The notes beneath the pieces were generated by a model that saw nothing but the letters and a program-made list of their open reading frames with translations, was not told where the DNA came from and ran no database searches. This document shows, piece by piece, positions 712 through 62,013 of a DNA stretch of 64,000 nt. The stretch's first letter is position 1. The number at the start of each line of letters is the position of its first letter. Both the position numbers and the translations under genes were made by a program. The DNA is from Dehalobacter sp. (GTDB lineage: Bacteria > Bacillota > Desulfitobacteriia > Desulfitobacteriales > Syntrophobotulaceae): the NCBI GenBank assembly GCA_023667845.1, contig JAMPIU010000125.1:62001-126000 (forward strand), written 5' to 3'.

Positions 712-1722
712 TTAAGCCAAAGCGCCACCACAACTTGAACCAACTCCCGCAGTACAAGCATAGCAATGATTATTAAGCATAATTTTACGGTCCTGAAGGG
801 TAGCAAGATTAAAATCCTGAACAAATCTTGGTTGACAATTCAGCCCCAGCATCTGGTTAAAATCGCAGTCATAAAGTTGACCGTCCCATCCCACAGAAAT
901 CAATTCCCGGCACATGACTTTCGATACAGCCGATAGGTTAAAAGCACCGGCCAAATGTGACATATACCTTTCCAGGTTCTGGCTCTCAGTAAGAAAAGTC
1001 AGAAAACGTCCAACCGGAACATTCGTAAGAGTGTGTAAATTATTGAAACGAACTCCGTAACGGTTCAAAAGCTCTCTGCGAAAATCCACTTCAATCATGT
1101 GTTGGGGCGGTGGTAAAAAAGCGCCACCCGGATTATAAACCAGATTAAGCTTTAACTGACTGTTCTCGTTTCCATAGCCTAAATTATTTAATCGCTGAAG
1201 AACCTGAATAGAGGTTTGAAAAACTCCCTTTCCCCTCTGTCTCTCAGTATTCTCTTCTTTGTAACAAGGTAAGGAGGATATTATCTCAACACCTTTACTG
1301 GCGAACAACTGCAGCAGAGGGGCATATTCAGCTAAAGCCAGTACAGTAAGATTTGTCCGAATCATGACATGGCTGCCTATTTTAACTGCCTCATTTAAAA
1401 ACCAGGATAAGTGGGAGTTTAATTCAGGGGCTCCCCCAGTTATATCCAGGTTGGGAATATGATTATCAGCCAGGGCTTGAAGACAAAAAGACATAGTCTG
1501 CTGACTCATAGATTCCCGGCGATGAGGCCCTGCCTCGGCATGACAATGCTTGCAGGACAGGTTGCATACCTTGCCTACATTGACCTGAAGCGTATTGATA
1601 GAATTGCTGCTCCTTAGGGGATATAAATTTACTTCCTTAAGTTTTTCCTTAAACGGTTTGATACCTTTAACAGATTGCAAGCAATTCGGTATTAAATCCG
1701 CTGATTTGTAATAAGATTCCAC
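712..1722 (-). CDS. arsS: ArsS-like radical SAM protein (arsenosugar biosynthesis type)
   Basis: A 336-residue radical SAM enzyme. The SAM/4Fe-4S motif C-x3-C-x2-C is visible at Cys53, Cys57 and Cys60 (VCNLSCKHCHAEAG). The C-terminal part carries further cysteines (YDCDFNQMLG and HCYACTAGVGSSCGGA), the pattern of the DUF3641 tail of ArsS proteins. In characterised arsenosugar pathways ArsS joins the 5'-deoxyadenosyl group of SAM to dimethylated arsenic. The start is GTG at 1722 with an AAGGG-type site upstream. It follows the TVP38 gene by 16 bases and ends the operon. No ArsM methyltransferase is visible in the window, so the real acceptor atom is open. The family call is strong; the substrate is inferred. 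Confidence 0.85.
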   Translation of the reverse strand: MESYYKSADLIPNCLQSVKGIKPFKEKLKEVNLYPLRSSNSINTLQVNVGKVCNLSCKHCHAEAGPHRRESMSQQTMSFCLQALADNHIPNLDITGGAPELNSHLSWFLNEAVKIGSHVMIRTNLTVLALAEYAPLLQLFASKGVEIISSLPCYKEENTERQRGKGVFQTSIQVLQRLNNLGYGNENSQLKLNLVYNPGGAFLPPPQHMIEVDFRRELLNRYGVRFNNLHTLTNVPVGRFLTFLTESQNLERYMSHLAGAFNLSAVSKVMCRELISVGWDGQLYDCDFNQMLGLNCQPRFVQDFNLATLQDRKIMLNNHCYACTAGVGSSCGGALA

Positions 1723-1738
1723 GGTGTGTCACACCCTT

Positions 1739-2425
1739 TTAGTTACTATGCTTTTTCTCCCACATTTGCCGTAAGACAAATATGACTATACTTAATGAAA
1801 ACAGTATCAGAAGTCCGAAGACAAATGTTCTTACACTACCCACCAACATTCCTCCCACATAGGAATAAATAATTGTGGCCGGGAGCTGGCCTAGGCCCGT
1901 GGCCCAAAAGAATTCCCAGAAGCCCATTGAGGTTAAGCCAGCTGCATAGCTGACTATATCAAAAGAGACAAAAGGCAGCAAACGGGCTACTAATACTGCC
2001 CATTTCCCATACTTTTCAAAGAAAACATCAACCTGCTTGAGTACAGAACGGGTGGTTAGTTTTTCTGCAACCGTCCGGCCATAGATGCGGGCAATGGCAA
2101 AGCATAGAGCCGCTCCTGCCATAGCGCTGCTCCATGACAATATTGCTCCTTTAATCCAGCCGAATAATCCGGCATTGGCAAAGGTTATCACGAAAGCCGG
2201 AAGGGGTGCAATTAATGATTGAAAGACCATCAGAAAAAAGGATACAATCGGTGCCCATATGCCGAACGACAGAATGTACTCCTTTGCTGCTGGTATATTA
2301 ACCATAGATAAGATAAAGATCGCCTTGTTTACCGCGGAATGAACCGGCTGTACAAAATAGTAACTGCCGACAATCAACGCTAAAACACCTATTTTAATAG
2401 TCCAGTTTTTATATCTCCTGTCCAT
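1739..2425 (-). CDS. TVP38/TMEM64 family membrane protein
   Basis: A 228-residue polytopic membrane protein with an N-terminal transmembrane segment (about residues 10-28) and the SNARE-associated/VTT domain (about residues 55-190). The domain contains a glycine-rich stretch (NAGLFGWIKGAILSWSSAMAGA) followed by an ARIYGR motif. Relatives (TVP38, DedA, YdjZ) are membrane proteins implicated in lipid scrambling or transport of lipid-linked compounds. It sits 3 bases from the DUF2064 gene and 16 bases from the radical SAM gene, inside the arsenosugar-like operon. A role in moving a lipid-linked product is inference. Confidence 0.85.
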   Translation of the reverse strand: MDRRYKNWTIKIGVLALIVGSYYFVQPVHSAVNKAIFILSMVNIPAAKEYILSFGIWAPIVSFFLMVFQSLIAPLPAFVITFANAGLFGWIKGAILSWSSAMAGAALCFAIARIYGRTVAEKLTTRSVLKQVDVFFEKYGKWAVLVARLLPFVSFDIVSYAAGLTSMGFWEFFWATGLGQLPATIIYSYVGGMLVGSVRTFVFGLLILFSLSIVIFVLRQMWEKKHSN

Positions 2426-2428
2426 AAT

Positions 2429-3133
2429 TCAACTCCCTTCGGCCAAACTAAAATCTAAGCTATATTTTTGCACTAACAATTCTGCAATCCTGTACGACTG
2501 CAATCCCTTATATGTTTCTTTTCCCGCTAAGCCCCGCCGATAGTAAGCCAGCATGTCTTCCCATGTATCAATGTCCTGCAAGCTTTCCAGTAGCGAATAG
2601 GTAAGCCCCTTATCTCTTACAGCCTGCAGAGTCCTTTTCAGCACTTCAGATGTGCTCCAGGGTATACCACAAAAAAGATCGCGACAATTTTTCTTTAAGC
2701 CTATTAGATAATAACCACCGTCTTGGGCGGGTCCTAAGACAACATCAACTTCCCTAAGCCTGTCAAAGGCCTCTTCCAGAACTGCCCTGCTGATTTCGGG
2801 AATATCTGAGCCGATGATTAAAATGGACTGATAGTGTGACAAGCCCTCCTCTGCAATGTTTTGCATTCTTTCTCCTAAACAATTCCCTTGCTGCAATCGT
2901 TCCTGAAAATGATAGTCATCCCAAATAGCCAGATTTGGCGACTGCAAATCGGCTAATGAAGAGTACCAATAAACGTAACCGGGTAGTCCTGTGCTGTTTA
3001 CGGTATTCAGAATATCTCTAAGACTGGCTTGGTGGAAAGCGGCACTTTCCTCGTCGGTGATTACACGTTGAAGACGAGTTTTAGTATAGCCGGGATGTGG
3101 TATTTTGCTCATGACGGCAATCACTTTTTTCAT
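2429..3133 (-). CDS. TIGR04282-type glycosyltransferase (DUF2064)
   Basis: A 234-residue soluble protein with a nucleotide-diphospho-sugar transferase fold. Visible landmarks are the N-terminal 'K-x-P-x-P-G-x-T-K-T-R-L' segment, the metal/nucleotide region IIGSDIPEIS, and GPAQDGGYYLIGL followed by IPWSTSEVLKRTL. NCBI models group such proteins as arsenosugar biosynthesis glycosyltransferases because they co-occur with ArsS; the biochemistry of this subgroup is poorly known. The start overlaps the end of the upstream GT2 gene by 4 bases (ATGA-type), so the two are probably translationally coupled and act in sequence. Confidence 0.85.
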   Translation of the reverse strand: MKKVIAVMSKIPHPGYTKTRLQRVITDEESAAFHQASLRDILNTVNSTGLPGYVYWYSSLADLQSPNLAIWDDYHFQERLQQGNCLGERMQNIAEEGLSHYQSILIIGSDIPEISRAVLEEAFDRLREVDVVLGPAQDGGYYLIGLKKNCRDLFCGIPWSTSEVLKRTLQAVRDKGLTYSLLESLQDIDTWEDMLAYYRRGLAGKETYKGLQSYRIAELLVQKYSLDFSLAEGS

Positions 3134-3816
3134 GACTTCTCCCTATACCTTAAGACGAGTAATTCAGGATTTACCCCAAGTTTATAAAGTAATTTCAGCA
3201 TCTGCATTTTACAGATGGTTCGGAACAATCCGCGGTTGCGAAAACGTCTGCTGCTCGTTACGACTTTACCCTCAATAACAAAGGCTTCGCCAAACCGGCG
3301 CATCCTTTTGGAGAACTCCATATCCTCCATGATAGGTATGGGAGGAAATCTTCCCGCTCTCTGAAAGGTTTCCTTTCTGCAGTAGATAACCTGATCGCCA
3401 TAGCAGCTGGAAAAAAAGCGGCTGCGAAGGTTAGAAAAAAAAGCCAACATTCTGTAAAACGTGTCATCATAATCAAAAGCCATTGTACAGCAGCCCCATG
3501 TAGCACCGGCATCAAGAGCGGCTTCAATATCTGCGAAAATTCTGCTTTCAAAATCTGTATCGGCATGCAAAAAAATCAGCGCCTCGCCTCGGCTAACATC
3601 GGCACCGGCGTTTAACTGTGTTCCTCTTCCGCGTTGAGCCGAAATTAGTCGAACCGGATATCTGCTGCATATTTGTCGCGTGTTATCCTTACTCCCACCA
3701 TCTACGACTATAACTTCAAGCTCTGATAGATATTGCAGCTTTTCCAGGAGATCAGCAATCTTCTGTTCCTCGTTCAAAGTTGGAATAACTACCGATATTC
3801 GTGGGAAAATTGGCAC
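3130..3816 (-). CDS. TIGR04283-type family 2 glycosyltransferase
   Basis: A 228-residue GT-A glycosyltransferase. The nucleotide-sugar site is visible as VVIPTLNEEQKIADLLEKL, VVDGGSKDNT and the metal-binding FLHADTDF. A later PPIPIMEDMEFSKRMRRFG segment supplies the usual ED acceptor-side motif. The start is GTG at 3816 with a GGAGG-type site nine bases upstream. It overlaps the 3' end of the C_GCAxxG_C_C gene by 65 bases, longer than ordinary coupling. The pairing with a DUF2064 transferase and ArsS is the known arsenosugar gene association. The sugar donor and acceptor are not known. Confidence 0.85.
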   Translation of the reverse strand: MPIFPRISVVIPTLNEEQKIADLLEKLQYLSELEVIVVDGGSKDNTRQICSRYPVRLISAQRGRGTQLNAGADVSRGEALIFLHADTDFESRIFADIEAALDAGATWGCCTMAFDYDDTFYRMLAFFSNLRSRFFSSCYGDQVIYCRKETFQRAGRFPPIPIMEDMEFSKRMRRFGEAFVIEGKVVTSSRRFRNRGLFRTICKMQMLKLLYKLGVNPELLVLRYREKS

Positions 3817-4225
3817 ACTCCTGTTCCTCCCATACCTTGATAAGGATACTTACTGACTGTATTGTTAGTTCTATACACCCCGTATTGCCGATATTTCGCC
3901 AAAAACCATGTTTCTTGCGCAAAACACGGCAGCAGGTTGACCCAAAGACCCGTGAAAACTCCGTGTGCAGCCTCTGCGCTATTGCCTCCCCTTGGTTCAG
4001 ATTATACTTTTCCGATATAATACCGGAAAACATGACCATACCGACTAGACTTCCGCAAGTACAGCCGCTGCCCATTCCGCGAGTGAATAATGCCGCCGCT
4101 CCGTACGTATCTTCATTGAGTTTGATGTTAAAAACCTGACTGGCGGCGTATAGAACAGACTGGCAACAATTGAAACCATCTTTCATATGTTCACGAACGA
4201 GCACTTCAGCAGTTTTCTCCAACAC
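3752..4225 (-). CDS. C_GCAxxG_C_C family redox protein
   Basis: A 157-residue protein with the cysteine pattern of the C_GCAxxG_C_C family: Cys20-Cys21 (GFNCCQS), Cys55 and Cys57 (GSGCTCGS), Cys98-Cys99 (STCCR) and Cys117 (NTGC). Family members are small proteins thought to bind a metal centre or act in redox chemistry; none of the exact functions is settled. The last residues after about 145 overlap the following glycosyltransferase in another frame. The extra vicinal cysteines suggest thiol or metalloid handling next to the rhodanese and ArsS-like genes, but that is inference. Confidence 0.8.
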   Translation of the reverse strand: MLEKTAEVLVREHMKDGFNCCQSVLYAASQVFNIKLNEDTYGAAALFTRGMGSGCTCGSLVGMVMFSGIISEKYNLNQGEAIAQRLHTEFSRVFGSTCCRVLRKKHGFWRNIGNTGCIELTIQSVSILIKVWEEQECANFPTNIGSYSNFERGTEDC

Positions 4226-5159
4226 TGCATTCCCTGTCCTTCCTTCGATGAATTAACCAGAACCAACCACCATATAAACTGCAAAAGCTGACTAAAAACG
4301 CAAAGATAAGAGAAGCCGCAAAGGCTGGCCCTTTGTCGACTCCATAGGTCGAAAGCAGAAAAACATAAGCCCCCTCCCGTACCCCATACCCGTTGATACC
4401 CAAGGGAATCATGGATAAGGCGGAGATGGCCGGAATTATATAGATCACCTCTATAAAACTAAGCTCCGTGATATTTAAAGCCCTAAAAATCGTGTAATTT
4501 ACTCCCACCACCGTTAACTGGAACAGAACCGAAAGTGCCCCCACTAAAAAAACCTTTCTCCAATGCTCTTTGAGTGAACCTCCATGCTGGCACAATCCAA
4601 CTAGAAACCGTGCGCAACGCCCCTTTTTCTTTAGGAGAAAGCCGGGCGGACTGGCCAGAGCAATTAGCATAGTTAACCCTGAAGAGACTATAATTAAAAT
4701 AATAAACAAACCGTTGACCTGTAAACTCATCTGCCTTGCAAACGAACTTGCCAGGACTCCGGTGACTGCCAAACCAAAGGTGGCAAGTATGCGTTCCACT
4801 GTAATAGATGCAGCGGCTCCCGCCATATCCCCCAGCCTTTTTCCGGTAAGAATTATGCGGATACTGTCCCCTCCGATACTTGATGGCAAAAAGTTATTCG
4901 CAAAAATGCCTATCCAGTAAAACATCCATAAATCCTTAAAAATTGTTTTAAAACCTTGGGCCCGCAATAAAATCTGCCATTTGACCGTACTTACATACAT
5001 GGACAGGAAAATAAGCAGAATGGCTGGAAGAAGCCAGGTAATTCTGGCTTCTTCCAGTACATGCCTTAACTGCGACCAATCAATGGTATAAACCAGCCAG
5101 GATAAGAGGCCCAGTGAAACAACAGTTTTAAGAAGTATCGCTTGATTTTTTTTTAACAT
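4206..5159 (-). CDS. LPG-synthase-type transmembrane protein (UPF0104)
   Basis: A 317-residue integral membrane protein with about eight predicted transmembrane segments. Conserved family features include NFLPSSIGGDSIRIILTGK near residue 90 and GINGYGVREGAYVFLLSTYG near residue 255. These match the lysylphosphatidylglycerol synthetase/glycosyltransferase AglD membrane family, without the soluble aminoacyl-transferase domain of MprF. The start lies 2 bases from the end of the rhodanese gene. In glycosyltransferase operons such proteins are suspected to flip or transfer lipid-linked substrates; that role is inferred here. Confidence 0.8.
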   Translation of the reverse strand: MLKKNQAILLKTVVSLGLLSWLVYTIDWSQLRHVLEEARITWLLPAILLIFLSMYVSTVKWQILLRAQGFKTIFKDLWMFYWIGIFANNFLPSSIGGDSIRIILTGKRLGDMAGAAASITVERILATFGLAVTGVLASSFARQMSLQVNGLFIILIIVSSGLTMLIALASPPGFLLKKKGRCARFLVGLCQHGGSLKEHWRKVFLVGALSVLFQLTVVGVNYTIFRALNITELSFIEVIYIIPAISALSMIPLGINGYGVREGAYVFLLSTYGVDKGPAFAASLIFAFLVSFCSLYGGWFWLIHRRKDRECSVGENC

Positions 5160-5161
5160 CC

Positions 5162-6112
5162 CTATTTTTCAAGAGGCAGATTTTTATTTCCTGACCACTC
5201 ATAAAATGACGCATCATAATTACGGGCTTTTTCAAAACCAACCATTTTTAAAACCATAGCCATATGCCCTGAACGAATCCCTTTGGTGCAATAAGTTACG
5301 ATCGTATCATCAGTTTTTAATCCTGCACCGGTAAAGAGAGCTTTCAGTTCTTGGGAACTTTTTAATGTTCCGTCGTTATTAAACATTTCTTCAAAGGCTA
5401 GGTGAATGGCTCCCGGTAGGTGTCCGCCCCGTGCCTCACCAAAGTCTGTAGCGCCAGCCCATTCTTTGTCTGTGCGAACATCCACAATCTTGATGTTTTT
5501 CTGGTTGGCCACAATCCAGTCTTGTGTCGCATTAATCTGTTCATCAAGCGCGGATATGCTGAAAGTCACAGGAATAGGGCTTACCTGAGCATTATTTATA
5601 GCCCCACCGGCATTCTTCCAAGCCGATAAACCGCCATCAAGAATTTTGACGTTTTTTATTCCGGCTACATTAAAAGTCCAAAGTACGCGGCCTTCCTCAC
5701 CCCAGCCCGGTGGTTGGCCATAAACCACTGCCATTTTGTCTCCATTCACTCCTAATTTACCGATGGCTGCTGCCAGTTCTTCCTTTGGTAAAAGTGTACC
5801 CCAGGCAGGATCCCCCGGTTTTCCTTTGACATTGGCAAAGGTTTGCCATACCGCATTCACAGCTCCCGGAATATGTCCATCGGCATATTCTTTGTCTGTT
5901 CTAACATCGATTACAACGGTTTTTTCTAAATTAGCCTTCAACCAGTCGGCATTCACAAATAGCGTGGCTTTTTGTTCGTCAATCCGGTCAGTCTGTTGAG
6001 TGGGAGCCGATTCAGGTCCAGGCGTGGCAGTCGGAGCGTTCTTACCGCAAGCCGCAAGACTAAGGACTAGAATTAAAGCCATAAATAAAACAAATACTCT
6101 TTTAAATCTCAT
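5162..6112 (-). CDS. Lipoprotein with two rhodanese domains (sulfurtransferase)
   Basis: About 316 residues from the ATG at 6112. This start has an AGGAG site 10 bases upstream; the in-frame TTG at 6121 is too close to that site. The N-terminus is a lipoprotein signal with lipobox LAAC (Cys22), so the protein is anchored outside the membrane. Two rhodanese domains follow. The first (about 50-165) has Gly at the catalytic position (VVYGQPPGWG) and is probably inactive. The second (about 195-310) keeps the catalytic cysteine in TYCTKGIRSGH (Cys275). This is the thiosulfate/mercaptopyruvate sulfurtransferase layout. It leads the arsenosugar-like operon. Confidence 0.9.
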   Translation of the reverse strand: MRFKRVFVLFMALILVLSLAACGKNAPTATPGPESAPTQQTDRIDEQKATLFVNADWLKANLEKTVVIDVRTDKEYADGHIPGAVNAVWQTFANVKGKPGDPAWGTLLPKEELAAAIGKLGVNGDKMAVVYGQPPGWGEEGRVLWTFNVAGIKNVKILDGGLSAWKNAGGAINNAQVSPIPVTFSISALDEQINATQDWIVANQKNIKIVDVRTDKEWAGATDFGEARGGHLPGAIHLAFEEMFNNDGTLKSSQELKALFTGAGLKTDDTIVTYCTKGIRSGHMAMVLKMVGFEKARNYDASFYEWSGNKNLPLEK

Positions 6113-6164
6113 ATTTTCCAATCTCCTTCGGACCTTTCATCCATTTAGTGTTAGTACAAGTTTA

Positions 6165-6199
6165 AGTATAGCAGGCAGATGATTAATTAAAAATACATA
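6165..6199 (-). promoter_or_regulatory. Candidate extended -10 promoter of the arsenosugar-like operon
   Basis: On the minus strand a TGCTATACT sequence (extended -10, complement at 6165-6173) lies about 50 bases upstream of the rhodanese ATG. The -35 region is poor (TTTTTA), as tolerated in extended -10 promoters. No other promoter-like site is seen within the closely packed genes downstream, so one transcript for the operon is plausible. Confidence 0.35.
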
Positions 6200-6545
6200 T
6201 TATCTATAACGACGATTATATTCCATCGAATTTATCAATTCTTATTACATGTTATAGTTACATTCATCTGGAGTTTCTGTTTCAGACCTGGAGGTTATTG
6301 GTCATTTCGACAGTTTGGAAGCCCTTATGGAAAGTGTTAGGGAACAAAAAAGATGCCGCTTGAAGCTGATGGGGCCTTCGAGGGCAATCTCCGTTTAATT
6401 ACAAGAACAGTTTTCCTATATTTTAACATATTCATTCAGTTTTATTACAGTGACCAAATTTATTACCTGCAGGATAATACCATATGGAGTGTGGATTTTG
6501 AGTGGAAAAATAAGTTTATTTACCAGGCAACTATCAGAGTTTATG

Positions 6546-6720
6546 CTATATTAACAAATCGCTCCGGCTCACTTTGCTGAATATCTTCTTCCCTTCTATC
6601 GCTGAGCTTCCTACATCCCAGGCCAGGAAGAACCCAAGTAGGGCGATTGCAGCTGCAAGCAAGCTTACGGCCGTGAATCCTTTGTTGGCTGTGTTTGATA
6701 GGGAATATATAATTCTCCAA
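6546..6720 (-). pseudogene. 3' remnant of a membrane protein gene
   Basis: A minus-strand frame without a start codon encodes a peptide of about 55 residues containing one good transmembrane segment (VSLLAAAIALLGFFLAW), a charged tail and then a stop. A longer frame shifted against it is open over 6541-6783 but has an implausible composition. The simplest reading is the C-terminal end of a deleted membrane protein gene. The family is not recognisable. Confidence 0.3.
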
Positions 6721-6869
6721 TATATCCTTCATTTTATATTCCCATAACAACTGCCAGATCATTTGGCAAATTCCCTGCATCACAGATAGTTCAGGGTGGC
6801 TTTTCAGAGGTAAAAAAACCCTATCCTCTATAGAAAAGAAAAATCTTCGTTGTGAAGATAAATATTAAT

Positions 6870-7838
6870 TTATACTAACTCTCCATACATAGGCGGTACT
6901 TTTGTCCAACCTTTCGCTTTTCCGTATACCAGAATTTTATCATACGTACTCATTTCGACTTTGAATAGATCGATGAATATTTCGCGCAGGTGATCATTTC
7001 TTACCGTTTCTAATACGGCTCTCATGTGCAGGTCCACAGAATCCTGAATCCCTGCGAGAAGTATTCTATACATAAATATATCTTCCATGGCTTCCGGATC
7101 TACGCGTTGCACGATTTTAGCAGGTGGTCTTTCAGGTACAGGGACATTGTATTTTAGAGACAGTTGCTCAAATAGCTCGATCTGCTTTTTGAGAATTTTA
7201 ATTCCCATCTCCAACATTACTTTAAAGCTCGGGTCATGGGCAAAACTTCCGTAAAACTGGGTTAACTCCAACTGGTCATATCTAAAATTCAGATGATCCC
7301 AGATATGGAAGGCTTCACTGACTGATAACTCCTCTTTTTTCATGGGTTTGGGGGGCTTATAAGCCGGGGGGTTGTCCTCCCAGCTTTTAAGTTTTCCATA
7401 CTTATATAAGAGCTGAAACTGTGAAGCGTGGCCTAAAAGGGCCTCTTTAAACAGTTCCCTCACACGATCATTCGTCGTCGAGGTCCGATAAGCCCTAGCT
7501 AAAGCATACATTTCAGTTACTAGATCTTCAAATATTTTTCTGTAAATAAATTTGTCTGTAAGCTCATCGACCTTTTTGTCAATCTTAAGATCCGCAGCAG
7601 GTCTCTTGGGTAAAGTTACCGAATAGCGGGCTGCTTCCTCCTCCAAAATCTTTGATTCCTTTAAAAAGGTACTCAAGAATTGATTGAGTAGAAGATCGAA
7701 ATCACGGTCATGAATAAAGTTTTTATACATCTGAAATGTTTCTATACTTCCATAGCGAGCTCTAAGAGTATTCCATAAATTGAACGCTGTAATAATATCA
7801 ACTGTTTCCAGGCTGTTTCTTTTAAAAATTGATACCAA
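6870..7838 (-). CDS. DUF3231-like two-repeat ferritin-like protein (copy 2)
   Basis: About 322 residues, almost wholly helical, built of two related halves. The first half begins AFNLWNTLRARYGSIETFQMY and ends at KLKSWEDNPPAYK. The second begins AFHIWDHLNFRYDQLELTQFY and ends at KAKGWTKVPPMYGEL. This doubled helical-bundle layout fits DUF3231-type proteins of Firmicutes; the function is unknown. The TTG at 7838 is preferred because the GTG at 7847 lies inside the GGAGGTG ribosome site, and the paralogue upstream has the same arrangement. It is the downstream copy of a tandem pair. Confidence 0.7.
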   Translation of the reverse strand: MVSIFKRNSLETVDIITAFNLWNTLRARYGSIETFQMYKNFIHDRDFDLLLNQFLSTFLKESKILEEEAARYSVTLPKRPAADLKIDKKVDELTDKFIYRKIFEDLVTEMYALARAYRTSTTNDRVRELFKEALLGHASQFQLLYKYGKLKSWEDNPPAYKPPKPMKKEELSVSEAFHIWDHLNFRYDQLELTQFYGSFAHDPSFKVMLEMGIKILKKQIELFEQLSLKYNVPVPERPPAKIVQRVDPEAMEDIFMYRILLAGIQDSVDLHMRAVLETVRNDHLREIFIDLFKVEMSTYDKILVYGKAKGWTKVPPMYGELV

Positions 7839-7917
7839 ATCAGTCACCTCCGATTATGCTTATTTCTTGAATACTGTTGTTTAGTTTGAAGCAAATATCA
7901 ATATAGTATTCACTAGT

Positions 7918-8889
7918 TTATACTAACTCGCCATACATGGGCGGTACTTTTATCCAGCCTTTCGCTTTCCCGTATTTTAGGAATCGATCATACGAGCTCA
8001 TTTCGGCCTTAAAAAAATCGATATATATCTCGCGCAGACTGTCATTTCTTACCATCTCCAGTACCGCCCGCATGTGCATGTCCACAGAATTCTGAATTCC
8101 CAAGAGAAGAATCCGATACATAAATTGGTCGTCCATGACTTCCGGATCTATGGGCTGTACCATTTCAGCGGGTGGCCTTTCAGGCACATGGACACTATAT
8201 TTTAGACACAGTTCCTCAATTGTTCCGATCTGCTTTTTGAGAATTACCAAGCCCATATCCAAGACAGCGATAAAGCTGGTGTCATGGGTAGAACGAATGA
8301 AGTAATTGACTAATTCCAACCGGTCATATCTAAAATTAAGATGATCCCAAAGATGGAAAGCTTCACTGATGGATAAATCCTCATTTTTCATTGGTTTAGA
8401 GGTCTTATAAGCCGGAGGATTATCCTCCCAGCTCTTTAATTTGCCAAATTTAAATAATGTTTGAAATTGATAAGCGTGACCTAACAGAGCATTCTTAAAA
8501 AGTTCTCTGAGCCGGTCATGATTTGTCGTGGTCCGATAAGCCCGGCCAAGAACCATCATTTGCGTAATCAGGTCTTCAAATATTCTCCTGTAAATATATC
8601 TGTCTGTAAGCTCATCCAGCTTTTTATCGATCCGAATATCCACTGCCGGTCTCTTCGGTAAGGTTACCGCATGGCGGGCTGCTTCATCTTCCAATACCGT
8701 AGATTCCTTTATAAAAGTATCTAAGAAATGACTAAGCAGAAGATCAAAATCGCGGTCGTGGATAAAGTTTCGATACAGCTGAAGGGTTTCAATACTTCCA
8801 TAACGCGCTCTTAAGGAATTCCATAAATTGAAGGCTGCAAAGATATCAATAACTTCTTCACCGGATATTTTTTTTAACAGAGAACCCAC
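7918..8889 (-). CDS. DUF3231-like two-repeat ferritin-like protein (copy 1)
   Basis: About 323 residues, closely similar along its whole length to the following gene (for example both contain RARYGSIET, FIHDRDFDLLL, LPKRPA and KVPPMYGELV). It has the same internal two-repeat structure, so the locus shows a duplication within each gene and then a duplication of the gene. The GTG at 8889 is the preferred start: a GAGGTG site lies six bases upstream, whereas the GTG at 8898 is part of that site. Around 80 bases separate the two copies. The function is unknown; DUF3231 proteins are found in spore formers, so a spore link is possible but not shown. Confidence 0.7.
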   Translation of the reverse strand: MGSLLKKISGEEVIDIFAAFNLWNSLRARYGSIETLQLYRNFIHDRDFDLLLSHFLDTFIKESTVLEDEAARHAVTLPKRPAVDIRIDKKLDELTDRYIYRRIFEDLITQMMVLGRAYRTTTNHDRLRELFKNALLGHAYQFQTLFKFGKLKSWEDNPPAYKTSKPMKNEDLSISEAFHLWDHLNFRYDRLELVNYFIRSTHDTSFIAVLDMGLVILKKQIGTIEELCLKYSVHVPERPPAEMVQPIDPEVMDDQFMYRILLLGIQNSVDMHMRAVLEMVRNDSLREIYIDFFKAEMSSYDRFLKYGKAKGWIKVPPMYGELV

Positions 8890-9115
8890 AACAATCACCT
8901 CATTAAAATTTTGTTTTAGTATCCGTTTGGCAAGTTTATTTTATGAATATACGGTATAAAGAATATCCTCATTACATACTCGGGTTCGACAAGTTATTCG
9001 CCCACTGAGATGTATAATATAAATTAAAGAAAAATAGAGGTAATACTCTAATCATGTCCAATATTAACAGATAAACATTTGATAGATAAAAATCGGAATG
9101 AACAGAGGTTATTTT

Positions 9116-12056: not shown

Positions 12057-13727
12057 ATGGATTCTCTAGCTTTACGCCAGAACGCGGAAAGGCTGATGGA
12101 CCAAAGGCACAAAGGCTTGGAAGCAAACGCGGCTGACTGCTCATTTGTGGATGAGGAACTTGAGGTTTATCATATCGAATTATCCATACAAAATGAAGAA
12201 TTGCAGCGGATTGGTCTGGAGAACGAATTGTCCCGGGACAAATATATGCGATTATATGATTTTGCCCCGGTAGGATTTTTCACCTTGGAGACCAATGGTC
12301 GGATCCTAGAAATAAACCGGAGCGGGGCCGCTCTCTTCGGAGCTGAGAAGAGCAATTTATTGGGTAAGGTCTTTACCAGCTATGTGACAGAGGAATACCA
12401 AGACACTTTTTCTGCGTATTGTCAGAAACTTAAGTGGACAAAAATAAAGCTGGACTGCGAGCTGAAACTCCGGAAAAATGGCGGGACTGTTTTTTATGCT
12501 TTGATGGAAGGGATAATCGCCAACGAAAAAGATGAAAATAACACCCTTTGTTTTGTTGCAATCATGGACATTACCGAACGAAAAAAGAATGAGGATGAGC
12601 GTCTAAAGTATGACCGACTGGATGCTTTAGGACTTCTGGCCGGGGGCATCGCCCACGACCTTAACAATCTGCTTACTGTCATCTGGGGTAATATCTCCTT
12701 GATCAATATGAACTCGTATTCAGCGGAAAAAAGCCATGTGCTCCTGTCTGAGGCAGAAAAAGCCTGCAGGCAGCTTGAGGATTTAAACAGACAGCTGCTG
12801 ACTTTTGCCAAGGGTGCAACACCCCTTAAAGCGCAAATATCCATCGCTGAATTACTTCATGATTCCGCGATCTTTGCGATGCGGGGTTCCAATGTGCGCT
12901 ATGAACTTGATCTACCCGATGATTTATGGCTCGCCAAAGTAGATAGCAGCCAAATCAGCCAGGTGGTCAATAATCTGATTATCAATGCCAAGCAAGCCAT
13001 GCCCGATGGCGGAACGTTATCTTTAAGCTGTGAGAACACCTATGTGACACCGGAAGAGGGACTGCCGTTAAACCCAGGTCCCTATCTTAAGATAACCGTG
13101 AAGGATCACGGTGTGGGCATTCCCAAAGACCAGCTCAACAGGATTTTTGATCCTTACTTTACGACGAAGGCCCAAGGGAACGGGTTGGGATTAGCTACTT
13201 CGTATTCCGTGGTCAAGAAACACGAAGGTCACATCTATGTTGAGTCCGAACTTGGTCTGGGAACAGCTGTGTATGTTTATCTTCCCGCCTTGCCGGGAAC
13301 AGCTACGTCTGAGAAAAAAAACAGCGACTCGCCTCTCCTGGGACGGGGTAAAATTTTGGTTATGGATGATCAGATTACCGTAAGAACCGTTATCGGAGAT
13401 ATGATTGCCCAGTTGGGGTATACGACTTCCTTTGCCGCAAATGGAGAGGAAGCGATCCGTTTTTACATAGATGCCAAGGAAAAAGGCGTGCCTTATGATG
13501 CGCTCATCCTAGATCTCACTGTCCCCGGCGGCCGTGGAGGCAAGCAGACCATCACAGAGCTGATTAGGATAGACCCCGATGTCAAGGCCATTGTTTCGAG
13601 CGGCTACGGTAATGACGCTATTATGACCGATTTTAAAAGTTATGGCTTCAAGGGGGTTATATCTAAACCTTTTTGTCTGGATAAAATCAGCAAAACCCTT
13701 TGGGATATTATTTCGGTCTCCGCGTGA
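12057..13727 (+). CDS. PAS hybrid histidine kinase with C-terminal receiver
   Basis: About 556 residues without membrane segments. A PAS domain (about 65-185; FAPVGFFTLETNGRI) precedes the dimerisation H-box GGIAHDLNNLLTVIWGN, whose His is the phosphorylation site. The ATPase domain shows the N box NNLIINAKQAM, the G1 box DHGVGIP, the F box FDPYFTTK and the G2 box GNGLGLATS. The receiver domain shows the MDDQ acidic pocket, the phospho-acceptor LILDLTVPG and the SKPF lysine. The ATG at 12057 is chosen; a GTG at 12039 overlaps the likely ribosome site. It lies 46 bases after the CheB-CheR gene and probably forms an operon with it. Confidence 0.9.
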   Translation: MDSLALRQNAERLMDQRHKGLEANAADCSFVDEELEVYHIELSIQNEELQRIGLENELSRDKYMRLYDFAPVGFFTLETNGRILEINRSGAALFGAEKSNLLGKVFTSYVTEEYQDTFSAYCQKLKWTKIKLDCELKLRKNGGTVFYALMEGIIANEKDENNTLCFVAIMDITERKKNEDERLKYDRLDALGLLAGGIAHDLNNLLTVIWGNISLINMNSYSAEKSHVLLSEAEKACRQLEDLNRQLLTFAKGATPLKAQISIAELLHDSAIFAMRGSNVRYELDLPDDLWLAKVDSSQISQVVNNLIINAKQAMPDGGTLSLSCENTYVTPEEGLPLNPGPYLKITVKDHGVGIPKDQLNRIFDPYFTTKAQGNGLGLATSYSVVKKHEGHIYVESELGLGTAVYVYLPALPGTATSEKKNSDSPLLGRGKILVMDDQITVRTVIGDMIAQLGYTTSFAANGEEAIRFYIDAKEKGVPYDALILDLTVPGGRGGKQTITELIRIDPDVKAIVSSGYGNDAIMTDFKSYGFKGVISKPFCLDKISKTLWDIISVSA

Positions 13728-13789
13728 TCTTTACTTTTTTCTTTCAAAGTATTCTTAATCTATCGATAAACCTAAGAATAACAAGTTAT

Positions 13790-13833
13790 AAACCCAACAG
13801 CTGCCTAAGTGACTGCTGGGTTTATTTGTTTTT
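13790..13833 (+). terminator. Rho-independent terminator of the signalling operon
   Basis: An AAACCCA...TGGGTTT stem, extended inward by a CAG/CTG pairing after one mismatch, is followed by a T-rich run. It lies about 60 bases after the hybrid kinase stop. Confidence 0.75.
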
Positions 13834-14143
13834 CAATTTGTTGTTGGTATTAATCTACAATGAGTAATTTATTTTCCATGAGTAATTTGTCTTGTTTAAT
13901 CAGAAAACGATAAGGTATCATTAAATTTGTAATGTAATGAAGAACTCGTTGCGTAAAACCTCTCCGCTTGGACTATCTACGTTATCCCCTGCGACAATTT
14001 TTTCACCTATAAGAAAATTTCGGAGTGTCAAGCAACCCCTTGTATCACAAGGCGGCTCTGAGATGCACATCAGCTTGATGACTTTTTACGTCGCGTTTCA
14101 ATCAGTACTAAAGCCACCAACAAAAGTAGTATTCAATTAGAGA

Positions 14144-14178
14144 AGAATCCCGCTGTTTGGTCGTGACAACGGGATTCT
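14144..14178 (-). terminator. Hairpin terminator of the DUF3102 gene
   Basis: A perfect nine-base stem AGAATCCCG/CGGGATTCT with a 17-base loop lies just past the DUF3102 stop codon. The pyrimidine tail is short in the minus direction, so efficiency is uncertain. Confidence 0.55.
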
Positions 14179-14196
14179 TTACAATAGGATTTTTGT

Positions 14197-15075
14197 TTAC
14201 AGTTCCGGAATATCCTTTGCCCACATCTCATCCCGCGCCCGCTGAATCAGAAACTCATAGACTTTATCCTTATAGGCAACGAAGGTGTCCGGGTCGCTTT
14301 GTTTGATCTTATCGAGCTGGAACCACAGTTCTTTGACCACCCGGTCCAGTTCCCCGTAGAGAAAGGCGATATTGTTGGCGCGTACCTTGGTCGACGCACT
14401 GCTTAAGTTCTTGCGCAGGGAGTTCAGGGATTTATAAGCGGTTGTTTTTTTGATGGAGGTTACCTCGTTCTGCAGGTTTTCGGCTTTTCGCTCTAGCCGG
14501 CTCTTGGCCGTAAACAATTCCTGGGCGTTTTTATCTAGTGCGGCGTTCGCTTGGGCCAGCCGGGCGGACTTTTCCTTTTCCTCCTCCAGGGCTTGCTGCA
14601 GGACCGCTTTTTTCTGTTCGGCCTGTTCCTTTTCCCGCCGGGCCTGATTCCAGTCGTCAATCGCCTTTTGCAGCTCGCGGGTAGACGTTCTCGCGACATC
14701 CGTGTCCGTGATGAAAGCGGCTCTTTCCTCTTCCGGTACGCCTAAGAGGATGTAGGCCTGTGAAAAGCTCAGTTCGGGTATTTCCTGGTCCGGTTCGCCG
14801 TCGGTGAAGATAGAAAGCTGTTTGACGCCGTACTCCTGGTAGAGGCGCATCATTTTTTCGGCCGTATCCTGGGAGTAGCTGACCTCCTCTTTCAACCAAC
14901 GGCCCCATTCCCCATACTTGACCTGCTCCTTGATCTCCGTCAGTCGCCGCCCGATCTCGATGGCGCTGCTGAGCACGATCCGATGGGTCTGTCTTTTGAT
15001 CAGGTTAATTTCCGACGCGATTAACTGCGGCGTCCGTACGGTCATTGTCTCGTTCATGTCAATCACTTCGTTCAT
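14197..15075 (-). CDS. DUF3102 domain-containing protein
   Basis: About 292 residues. The N-terminal part matches DUF3102: conserved SAIEIGRRLTEIKEQVKYGEWGRWL and a helix-turn-helix-like SYSQDTAEKMMRLYQEYG. A long charged coiled coil (about residues 145-230) and a helical C-terminus follow. DUF3102 proteins are common on plasmids, phages and integrated elements and are thought to bind DNA; the exact role is unknown. The ATG at 15075 is preferred; a longer frame to 15270 adds 65 residues of unlikely composition. It opens the accessory part of the window. Confidence 0.75.
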   Translation of the reverse strand: MNEVIDMNETMTVRTPQLIASEINLIKRQTHRIVLSSAIEIGRRLTEIKEQVKYGEWGRWLKEEVSYSQDTAEKMMRLYQEYGVKQLSIFTDGEPDQEIPELSFSQAYILLGVPEEERAAFITDTDVARTSTRELQKAIDDWNQARREKEQAEQKKAVLQQALEEEKEKSARLAQANAALDKNAQELFTAKSRLERKAENLQNEVTSIKKTTAYKSLNSLRKNLSSASTKVRANNIAFLYGELDRVVKELWFQLDKIKQSDPDTFVAYKDKVYEFLIQRARDEMWAKDIPEL

Positions 15076-20858: not shown

Positions 20859-20939
20859 TTGACCTTTTAAGGATAATTCGTGTTAATAAGCGAGAAATTT
20901 ATCTACGATAAAAATAAGACTAACCGAGGTGAAAGCCGT

Positions 20940-23252
20940 ATGGAGAATAAGAGAATCATTAAATCGGCCTGTCGCATGTGCCACGGAGGATGTCAAGTTT
21001 TGGTTCATATGGAAGGTGAACGGGTAGTTAAAATTACCGGTGATCCATCAAGTCCTACCAGTAGTGGCTACATTTGCGCCAAGGGGGCTGCTTCGGTAGA
21101 ATTGCTATATCATCCGGACAGAGTGCTACATCCTTTGCGCAGAGTAGGAAAACGCGGTGAAAATAAATGGGAGCAAATATCCTGGGATGAAGCACTTGAT
21201 GAGATGGTGGAGCGACTTCTCAAGATAAAACGAGAAAACGGGCCACAGTATTTCGGTATGATGCACGGAACAGGTCGACCTTACGAAAACCTGGGAGCCC
21301 GCTTTGCTAATGCGTTCGGGACGCCTAACTTCACCGGCGTGGCTCATATCTGTTTCTGGCCCCGTGTTTATGCCAATATATTTACACAAGGGATGTCTGA
21401 GATGCCGGTGTGCGACGTTTATGGTCAGGGTGGAGTGGAACCGCAATGTGTACTTATATGGGGATGTAACATCACTGGTCCTAAAGGGCATAATTCTGCT
21501 GACGGAATGTGTGGAGCTTTGCTGCAGACGGCTTTGAAAAATGCACGAAAAGTAATAGTAGTAGATCCCAGACGCATTTCACCGGCAGAAAACGCTGATC
21601 ACTGGCTGCAATTAAGACCCGGTACTGACGGAGCACTGGCCCTAGCTATGATCAACGTCATCATCGTTGAAGACTTGATAGATAGGGAATTTGTTAATAA
21701 ATACACGGTGGGATTCGACCGTCTCAAGGAGCATGTAAAGCATTTCACACCGGAATGGGCAGAAGGGATAGTCGGTGTGAGCGCTGAAGACATTAGAACA
21801 GCCGCCTGTACCTACGCCACGGTTAAACCGGCATGTATGCAGTGGGGGAACGGCATCGACCACAGTATGTGCAATTTCCATACGGCCCGCTCACTGCTGA
21901 TACTGAGGGCAATCACGGGTAACTTACATGTACCTGGTGGAGACATTATTTTCGAACGTCCCCATGGCTTACGCGTAAAATTTCCCTACCTGGACCCCCA
22001 TTTTTCCGGATTTCGCTTTATGCCATTGCAGAATTATCAGTATGCCCTGGACAGAGATTACGAAAAACAAAACAGTTCTCCCGCCAAAAACTTTATCCAG
22101 GACAAGACCTTGAAGTTTTTGGATGTTTTAAAATACAATCTTTATCCTCAGCTTACAAAACTCAGTCAAAATCAGGGGGATGGGCAGGCACTTAAACTGA
22201 TGGCCAAATTAAGCGGGGCACGATATCCCCTGTCTCCGGTGGTTCACCCGCCGACCTTCTGGGAATCTATCGTCAACAATAATCCTTACCGTATCCAGGC
22301 TTTATGGATCATGGGGGCTAATCCGCTGCTCACCATGAGCAACTCCCTGCTTATAGAAAAAGCCTTAAAACTCATTGACTACATAGTGGTTTCCGATTTC
22401 TTCATAACTCCTACGGCGCATTATGCCGATTTGTTTCTGCCAGCCTCAACCTGGCTGGAGTACGACGAGGTACATAACTCGGGTGCCCATACTTTCAGTG
22501 TATTTCCAAGGCAAAAAGTTGTTCAAATAGGGGATACCCTTGATGATCAAGAGGTTATGATCCTGCTAGCCCGGCGCTTAGGCATGCATGATGCCTTTCC
22601 TTGGCACAGCCACCAAGAGCTTACTGACTGGATGCTTGAAGGTACCAGTCTCAGCTTTGAGGAGTTCTGCGACAAAGGTATTTTAGTTGGTAAGGCAAGA
22701 TATTTTGCTTATGAAAAAGAGAAACACTTTTTTCACACACCTTCAAGAAAATTTGAGATATATTCTGATACCCTGGCTTCACTGGGAATTTCACCTCTCC
22801 CAATCTATCGTGAACCAGCCTTTTCACCGGTTTCAACTCCTCAAGTGGCCGAAAAGTACCCCCTGATATTGATTGGAGGGGTTAGAACGGCCGATTACTT
22901 CCATAGCGAAGGCCGCCAGATCAGTTCGCTGCGCCACAGAAATCCAGATCCACTGATAGAAATAAACCCCAAAACTGCTACATCTATAGGATGTTTAGAA
23001 GGTGACTGGGTATGGATTGAGACCCCCCATGGCAGAGTAAAAATGCGTGTCAAACTATTTGACGGGATAGCTGAGAATGTACTCTGCGCTCAATACGCAT
23101 GGTGGTTTCCTGAGGAAGCACCACCCGAACATGGCTGGAAAAAATCGAGTATCAACCTAACATTCGGCGAGATGGGTTATGATCCGGAAACCGGTTCGGA
23201 ATCATTAAAAAGTATGCTATGTAGAATATACAAAGTAGGAGATAAAGAATAA
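20940..23252 (+). CDS. Molybdopterin-dependent oxidoreductase (DMSO-reductase superfamily)
   Basis: 770 residues from the ATG at 20940, which has a GAGGTGAAA site; an upstream in-frame start at 20880 is less likely. The [4Fe-4S] motif is C11-x2-C14-x3-C18...C46 (CRMCHGGCQV ... GYICAKG). The likely metal ligand is Cys138 (GVAHICFWPRVYAN). Cofactor-binding features include VVDPRR, ALWIMGANPLLTMSN and a C-terminal dinucleotide-binding domain. There is no Tat signal, so it is cytoplasmic. In layout it resembles acetylene hydratase and related Mo/W enzymes, but the position of the hydratase catalytic Asp holds His15. The substrate is unknown. Confidence 0.88.
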   Translation: MENKRIIKSACRMCHGGCQVLVHMEGERVVKITGDPSSPTSSGYICAKGAASVELLYHPDRVLHPLRRVGKRGENKWEQISWDEALDEMVERLLKIKRENGPQYFGMMHGTGRPYENLGARFANAFGTPNFTGVAHICFWPRVYANIFTQGMSEMPVCDVYGQGGVEPQCVLIWGCNITGPKGHNSADGMCGALLQTALKNARKVIVVDPRRISPAENADHWLQLRPGTDGALALAMINVIIVEDLIDREFVNKYTVGFDRLKEHVKHFTPEWAEGIVGVSAEDIRTAACTYATVKPACMQWGNGIDHSMCNFHTARSLLILRAITGNLHVPGGDIIFERPHGLRVKFPYLDPHFSGFRFMPLQNYQYALDRDYEKQNSSPAKNFIQDKTLKFLDVLKYNLYPQLTKLSQNQGDGQALKLMAKLSGARYPLSPVVHPPTFWESIVNNNPYRIQALWIMGANPLLTMSNSLLIEKALKLIDYIVVSDFFITPTAHYADLFLPASTWLEYDEVHNSGAHTFSVFPRQKVVQIGDTLDDQEVMILLARRLGMHDAFPWHSHQELTDWMLEGTSLSFEEFCDKGILVGKARYFAYEKEKHFFHTPSRKFEIYSDTLASLGISPLPIYREPAFSPVSTPQVAEKYPLILIGGVRTADYFHSEGRQISSLRHRNPDPLIEINPKTATSIGCLEGDWVWIETPHGRVKMRVKLFDGIAENVLCAQYAWWFPEEAPPEHGWKKSSINLTFGEMGYDPETGSESLKSMLCRIYKVGDKE

Positions 23253-60777: not shown

Positions 60778-62013
60778 TTATACTATCCTGGTCCTTATCC
60801 TTTCAATGGCCCTCGCCGTATTCTCCCTAGTGTTGAAAGCCGTCAGACGGAAGAATCCTTCTCCGCTCGCACCGAATCCGGCTCCAGGTGTTCCGATAAC
60901 ATTTGCCTCTTTCATCAGCTTGTCAAAGAATTCCCAGGATCCTAACTGTCCCGGTGTTTTTAGCCAGATATATGGTGCATTCACACCGCCAAAGACGGTA
61001 TATCCCGCTTTTTCGAGACCAGCCCGGATAATTGCGGCATTATCCATATAATAATCAATGGTTTCTTTGACCTGTTGTTTCCCTGCCTCAGAAAATACGG
61101 CAGCAGTGGCAGCCTGGATCGGATAAGATACTCCATTGAATTTTGTGGTCTGCCTTCTAAGCCATAATTTATTCAGACTGTGCGCTTCCCCTTTGGAATC
61201 ATAGACCATGACTTCCTTTGGAACGATGGTATATGCGCAGCGAGTCCCGGTAAAACCAGCCGTCTTGGAAAAACTCCTGAATTCCACGGCCACTTCGCGC
61301 GCACCTTCGATTTCAAAAATACTATGGGGAACACCGTCTTCCCGAATGAAAGCTTCGTACGCAGCATCAAATAAGATGATGGCCTTATGATCGCGTGCAT
61401 AATCGACCCATTTCTTCAGTTCTTCAGCCGAAAGTGTCGTTCCAGTCGGATTATTCGGATAGCACAGGTAGATCATATCTGCTTTCGTGCTGGGAAGCGC
61501 CGGTTTCAGTCCATTTTCCTGATTACAGGGAAGATAAACGATTCCTTCAAACTGCCCTTTGTCGTTGTTATAAATACCGGTACGTCCAGCCATGACATTG
61601 CTGTCCACATAAACCGGATAAACCGGGTCTGTAACAGCCAAGATATTGCCCATTCCAAATATCTCCTGGAAATTGGCGGTGTCCGTCTTGGCCCCGTCAC
61701 TGATAAACACTTCGTTAACTGCCAGGTCGACACCGCGGGGCTTGAAATCGTGCTCAATGATTTTTTCAATCAGGAACTCATATCCCTGTTCTGGGCCATA
61801 TCCTCTAAAGGTTTTCTGCTGGCCCATTTCATCGACTGCCTGATGCATTGCTTCGATAACGGCTGGCGGAAGCGGACGGGTTACATCACCAATACCCATT
61901 TTTATCAAGTCACAGTCCGGATTTTCCTGTCTGAACTGCTTTTCCCGGCGGGCTATTTCCGAAAAGAGATAGCTTCCAGGCAGTTTAAGATAATTTTCAT
62001 TGACAAAAGCCAT
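60778..62013 (-). CDS. dapL: LL-diaminopimelate aminotransferase
   Basis: About 411 residues from the ATG at 62013 with a GGAGAG site. The PLP lysine is in [38 protein letters not shown] and the opening [16 protein letters not shown] are DapL-like. It converts tetrahydrodipicolinate to LL-diaminopimelate in one step, a route found in Clostridia-type Firmicutes, plants and Chlamydia. dapF lies directly upstream and acts next. Confidence 0.94.

Follow-up and report, generated by a model that had tools for sequence, protein, structure and literature searches.

An ArsS-carrying operon of sugar-transfer and membrane genes in Dehalobacter sp., with no native ArsM found

What can a cell make with ArsS, a radical S-adenosylmethionine (SAM) enzyme of arsenosugar clusters, when no arsenic methyltransferase (ArsM) is encoded beside it? 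The question is raised by a seven-gene operon of Dehalobacter sp. (assembly GCA_023667845.1, contig JAMPIU010000125.1, forward-strand positions 62,001 to 126,000). We call this whole stretch of 64,000 nucleotides (nt) the window, and coordinates are positions in it unless a locus label (L) is given; genomes carry G labels, and G000 is the window's own assembly. Besides ArsS, the operon encodes transferase-like enzymes of the families TIGR04282 and TIGR04283, a flippase-like protein, a VTT-domain membrane protein, a C_GCAxxG_C_C protein and a rhodanese. To our knowledge, the enzymes that convert the ArsS product to finished arsenosugars and arsenolipids have not been established; almost nothing on these late steps was found in open-access papers. 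The conserved gene set described here points to specific proteins that may activate the sugar, transfer it and move it across the membrane, and the operon is tractable. We favour, tentatively and with something short of even confidence, the reading that it is the ArsS-carrying form of a conserved anaerobic operon type, built from a radical SAM enzyme, sugar activation, a lipid carrier and a flippase, and that its arsenic is methylated outside the cell. In the account given by PMC12159101, the characterised ArsS adenosylates arsenic, as dimethylarsenite (Cheng et al. 2021).

Chance does not account for this gene set. In a sample of 398 genomes of the phylum, ArsS occurs in 12 and TIGR04283 in 30, and every genome with ArsS also has TIGR04283 (Fisher p = 3e-15; the tests treat genomes as independent, which they strictly are not). 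In 11 of the 12, one contig carries ArsS close to TIGR04283/TIGR04282. ArsM, scored in these draft genomes with one model (NF008823) and, for the genome counts, one threshold (E <= 1e-25), is found in 108 of the 398 genomes and in five of the 12 with ArsS, one of the five being a match on a foreign-looking contig (C161). An overlap of this size is expected by chance (p = 0.3 to 0.7). Native ArsM is present in 4/12 ArsS genomes of the phylum versus 39/50 ArsS genomes of other phyla (p = 0.005). In this phylum ArsS goes with TIGR04283 rather than with ArsM, so arsM-based surveys of arsenosugar synthesis will miss it. The findings suggest that arsenic chemistry is shared out among community members.

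Gene maps around TIGR04283, drawn with a simple open reading frame (ORF) caller, reveal a core that recurs in several families of the phylum. It consists of the flippase-like, C_GCAxxG_C_C and TIGR04283 proteins, mostly with TIGR04282 and VTT proteins and often with a rhodanese. The core is found whole or in part at L166, L172, L174, L175, L176, L178, and L179 and rearranged at L187 and L188; L170 is similar, with TIGR04283 on the opposite strand. This conservation bears out the earlier note's claim that the operon is one system. What varies is the radical SAM enzyme. The window, L179, L187, and L188 have ArsS; L172, L174, and L176 have a BioB-like enzyme; L166, L175, and L178 have an Rv1681-like one. 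In the BioB-like and Rv1681-like versions an enzyme of another subfamily replaces or accompanies ArsS; these versions share the flippase, C_GCAxxG_C_C and TIGR04283 proteins, mostly also TIGR04282 and VTT, and often a rhodanese. The three radical SAM enzymes thus appear exchangeable within a conserved sugar-and-membrane set, and their exchange points to products not yet described. The BioB-like enzyme was also considered as a strict substitute for ArsS, an idea that was weakened: it occurs in 16 of the 398 genomes, only five of them with TIGR04283, and next to ArsS in G027.

The full combination of ArsS, flippase, C_GCAxxG_C_C, VTT and both transferases is present in four genomes (G000, G187, G095, and G178), none of which has a native ArsM at E <= 1e-25, and partial sets with ArsS are seen at L131, L132, L171, L177, L181, L183, and L185. 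As to the proposed search for the same seven-gene order in related genomes, the exact order was found in no other genome, and subsets or rearrangements of it were (L179, L187, L188, and L177). A survey of 85 ArsS loci, made up of the 80 best from many phyla and five from the window's family, gives the wider setting. An AhpD-like partner stands at 64 of these loci, ArsM at 33, TIGR04282 at 23 and TIGR04283 at 18; flippase-like and C_GCAxxG_C_C genes lie beside ArsS in the window only. VTT and rhodanese appear at the 80 best loci only as a few weak matches.

The distribution of the core could also be explained if it makes a general lipid-linked or surface glycan, while ArsS is merely co-transcribed and detoxifies imported methylated arsenic alone, the two pathways being separate and sharing a promoter. 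ArsS is the last gene of the operon, the core occurs without it at L174, L175, L176, L178, and L172, and ArsS occurs without the core on another contig of the same assembly (C50) and at most of the best 80 loci. This explanation is possible but doubtful, since TIGR04283 accompanies ArsS in every ArsS genome of the phylum sample, the link recurs in varied gene orders (L131, L171, L177, L181, L183, L185, and L187), and the NCBI names of both transferase families refer to arsenosugar synthesis.

The operon itself (Table 1) consists of seven co-directional genes on the minus strand, nearly gapless from 712 to 6121, with intergenic gaps of +2, -20, -65, -4, +3, and +16 nt in transcription order. 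Because neighbouring genes overlap or lie at most 16 nt apart, a single transcript for all seven is likely. The listed ORF of the first gene starts with TTG at 6121, and an ATG at 6112 is the likelier start; the extent of 712-6112 given earlier is right if the ATG is used. The assignment of ArsS, TIGR04282 and TIGR04283 to arsenosugar-associated families also held, all three scoring above the curated cut-offs.

Table 1. Genes of the operon in transcription order, with the profile matches on which each assignment rests
Product	Position	Strand	Profile match
Rhodanese lipoprotein, two rhodanese (sulfurtransferase) domains, predicted secreted	5162..6121	minus	PF00581 twice
LPG_synthase_TM / TIGR00374 flippase-like membrane protein	4206..5159	minus	PF03706 2.3e-42; TIGR00374 62.6 bits (cut-off 43)
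C_GCAxxG_C_C putative redox-active protein	3752..4225	minus	TIGR01909 59.2 bits (cut-off 47.4); PF09719 7.5e-19
TIGR04283 family GT2 glycosyltransferase	3130..3816	minus	239.5 bits (cut-off 182)
TIGR04282 family CofC-like (DUF2064) nucleotidyl/glycosyl-transferase-like enzyme	2429..3133	minus	186.3 bits (cut-off 134)
TVP38/VTT-domain membrane protein	1739..2425	minus	PF09335 3.3e-27
ArsS radical SAM enzyme (TIGR04167) with C-terminal DUF3641 domain	712..1722	minus	425.7 bits (cut-off 300)

The products carry further marks of their families. The rhodanese has a lipobox (LSLAAC) and a C-terminal loop (CTKGIRS), and its best full-length relatives are 3-mercaptopyruvate/thiosulfate sulfurtransferases. 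The flippase-like protein has at least six hydrophobic segments; a search for relatives in the PDB found none. Acidic motifs (HADTD and MEDME) are present in the TIGR04283 enzyme, whose weak structure matches to undecaprenol- and dolichol-phosphate glycosyltransferases lie mainly over the N-terminal GT2 half. A search of plasmids with this enzyme returned only distant matches of <60% identity, mostly from Burkholderia and Rhizobium. The TIGR04282 enzyme has the motifs KTRL, GSDIP, and GPAQDGGYY and a PDB relative (3cgx) named as a putative nucleotide-diphospho-sugar transferase. The VTT protein matches the model of the undecaprenyl phosphate transporter UptA weakly (34 bits, far under the cut-off of 250).

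An Rfam search over the operon region gave no match, and a promoter scan of the region gave no excess over shuffled sequence. Terminator-like sites number 12 against 6.0 expected (standard deviation 2.4), mostly within genes, and are not interpreted. A perfect palindrome, GGTGTGTCACACC, lies at 1723-1735 directly 5' of the arsS start codon, where it possibly masks the ribosome-binding site.

Does the ArsS of the window differ from those that act on arsenic? Its TIGR04167 match spans profile positions 4-303 of 303. It retains 94 of the 102 residues that are invariant among 80 canonical ArsS, the eight changes being mild, and all eight invariant cysteines: C53, C57, and C60 of the radical SAM CxxxCxxC motif, and the C-terminal C271, C286, C320, C323, and C331. 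In a tree of 96 ArsS it falls within a Bacillota group of seven (Shimodaira-Hasegawa-like approximate likelihood ratio test, SH-aLRT, 96), together with L171, L177, L179, the C50 copy, G002, and G027, and its nearest relatives are 60-61% identical. The C50 copy is a second ArsS of the same assembly (437 bits; 221 kb contig, L121 9319-10784) and is adjoined by a canonical AhpD-like partner (TIGR04169, 188 bits). A PDB search with ArsS gave general radical SAM matches only. In these features the protein gives no hint of an altered element.

This bears on the earlier suggestion of a lipid-linked, exported sugar that carries arsenic, selenium or sulfur. Lipid-linked export fits the gene content; an element other than arsenic is left unsupported by the ArsS residues and the tree grouping. 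We consider it improbable that ArsS here acts on sulfur or selenium to give a thio- or seleno-sugar, with the rhodanese and the cysteine-rich protein as the route by which sulfur arrives; such chemistry is a guess from the presence of these two proteins. It would account for the lack of ArsM or any other arsenic gene with the operon, for the recurrence of rhodanese and C_GCAxxG_C_C proteins with the core, and for the use of other radical SAM enzymes by some core members. It is countered by the mildness of the changes in ArsS and its grouping with ordinary Bacillota ArsS, and it is weakened further because a rhodanese outside the membrane has no means of supplying a radical SAM enzyme in the cytoplasm.

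Other ArsS loci show unusual arrangements. G027, of the same order, has three ArsS copies and encodes a 676-amino acid ArsM-ArsS fusion (L129 6008-8038) whose ArsS part is diverged. At its L226, two tandem BioB-like radical SAM genes (4257-7758) directly adjoin an ArsS and AhpD-like pair, and a nearby gene (13130-14431) encodes an amidohydrolase that by eye resembles methylthioadenosine/S-adenosylhomocysteine (MTA/SAH) deaminase. The ArsS of G008 (L124 8937-9734) is without about 45 internal profile positions (185-229) and so may be non-functional or misassembled.

If ArsS acts on methylated arsenic, where is the methyl group added? The search for a native arsM found none in the operon or, as far as tested, elsewhere in the draft genome, which is 99.95% complete (3.65 Mb, 209 contigs, 3.7% contaminated). 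GatB marks the window's contig as native, with 94-98% identity to the proteins of three genus mates and 89% to that of the fourth. Within the family, ArsS scores above the cut-off only in G000, G002, and G008, and the four genus mates are without it. The best ArsM homologue of the assembly reaches 139 bits (cut-off 263) and lies on C161, a contig of 15.8 kb (L120 1-15785). C161 looks foreign: the NAD kinase encoded on it shares 34-35% identity with NAD kinases of the genus, against 98% identity to genus mates for the genome's own enzyme on C167. The contig's origin was judged by this comparison, tetranucleotide comparison being too noisy at its length. It also encodes a porin-like protein (outer-membrane type by eye, with no Pfam match). 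The C161 methyltransferase has a glutamate where eight aligned ArsS-linked ArsMs share a cysteine that is expected to bind arsenic. It was therefore rejected as the enzyme that completes the pathway in this organism, and the earlier statement that no ArsM is visible holds for the operon and, within the reach of a draft of this completeness, for the native genome. A second profile, TIGR04345, was discarded as an ArsM model; its family is the C-terminal part of OvoA.

The missing arsM could instead be an annotation gap in an ordinary arsenosugar pathway, with a host methyltransferase, either diverged or of a generic kind, supplying dimethylarsenite. We consider this quite unlikely. The assembly does contain ten methyltransferase matches below the cut-off, the C161 homologue has an ArsM-type C-terminal region, and some relatives of this ArsS have ArsM, as in the G027 fusion. 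On the other side are the foreign appearance of C161 and its replaced cysteine, the next best match at 59 bits, and the absence of an ArsM match from seven further ArsS genomes of the phylum.

Two known systems help to place the operon. It shares an intact ArsS and both transferases with the canonical arsenosugar cluster of, for example, Bacteroidota and Nitrospirota loci (ArsM, AhpD-like TIGR04169, ArsS TIGR04167, TIGR04282, and TIGR04283). It differs in the lack of ArsM and the AhpD-like protein and in the extra flippase-like, VTT, C_GCAxxG_C_C, and rhodanese genes. With systems of lipid-linked sugar modification (a polyprenyl-phosphate GT2, a flippase, and DedA/VTT recycling such as UptA) it shares the GT2, flippase-like, and VTT proteins; here, however, the sugar would come from a radical SAM deoxyadenosyl product, with polyprenyl as the presumed acceptor.

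The reading that we favour can be set out as a pathway, of which we infer every step after ArsS. The acceptor of the 5'-deoxyadenosyl group that ArsS takes from SAM would be an arsenical in trivalent and probably methylated form, either imported or produced by neighbouring cells, and the product would be 5'-deoxy-5'-arseno-adenosine. Loss of adenine and formation of a sugar-1-phosphate would fall to enzymes encoded elsewhere. CofC joins a nucleotide to a phosphate compound and so activates it, and the CofC-like TIGR04282 enzyme would likewise yield a nucleotide-activated 5-deoxy-5-arseno-ribose. The TIGR04283 enzyme would load this sugar onto an acceptor in the membrane, for which polyprenyl phosphate is the simplest choice. 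The LPG_synthase_TM protein would then flip the product to the outside and the VTT protein would bring the carrier back, roles that suit families of lipid-carrier traffic. As a guess, the C_GCAxxG_C_C protein might supply or relay electrons or thiols, perhaps as redox partner of the rhodanese or in another step, and the surface rhodanese might exchange sulfur on the exported arsenical.

Several points weigh against this pathway. No arsenic gene (arsR, arsB, arsM, or arsP) was recognised in the operon, nor does it contain a kinase, nucleosidase or phosphorylase. The AhpD-like partner of most ArsS loci is lacking, though a copy adjoins the C50 ArsS. The acceptor of TIGR04283 is our supposition, the structure matches covering mainly one half of the enzyme. 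Since the core is also found with radical SAM enzymes other than ArsS, its product need not hold arsenic in all members.

The early sugar steps have possible parallels at loci elsewhere in the phylum where TIGR04283, mostly with TIGR04282, accompanies an APH-like kinase (L168, L163, L164, L165, L167, L169, and L173, by eye). L168 (7146-13225) also encodes a nucleoside-hydrolase-like protein, with VTT and rhodanese genes slightly further off (by eye). Such kinase and hydrolase neighbours would suit a route from nucleoside to sugar, sugar phosphate, and nucleoside diphosphate (NDP)-sugar. The loci other than L168 have genes of similar size, which in L164 are those of a polyamine-type ATP-binding cassette (ABC) transporter. 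A broader proposal, which we hold to be unlikely, is a widespread anaerobic family of pathways. In it, ArsS, BioB-like and Rv1681-like radical SAM enzymes would be interchangeable and make unusual 5-substituted deoxyribosyl or related units, and a shared TIGR04282/TIGR04283/flippase/VTT machine would activate these, load them on a lipid carrier, and export them. The ArsS version would then turn arsenic that other members of the community have methylated into an arsenolipid of the cell surface.

The flanks of the operon hold other genes. A partial glyoxalase-like gene at 1-429, on the same strand and 282 bases 3' of the operon, has no obvious place in the set. At 6870-8898 lies a tandem pair encoding proteins of 325 and 326 amino acids that are 71% identical to each other; four genus mates offer one partial match to the pair (30%) and none over the full length, which suggests that this flank is accessory DNA. 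Further along, a gene on the plus strand (20880-23252) encodes a molybdopterin-type oxidoreductase large subunit, as assigned by eye.

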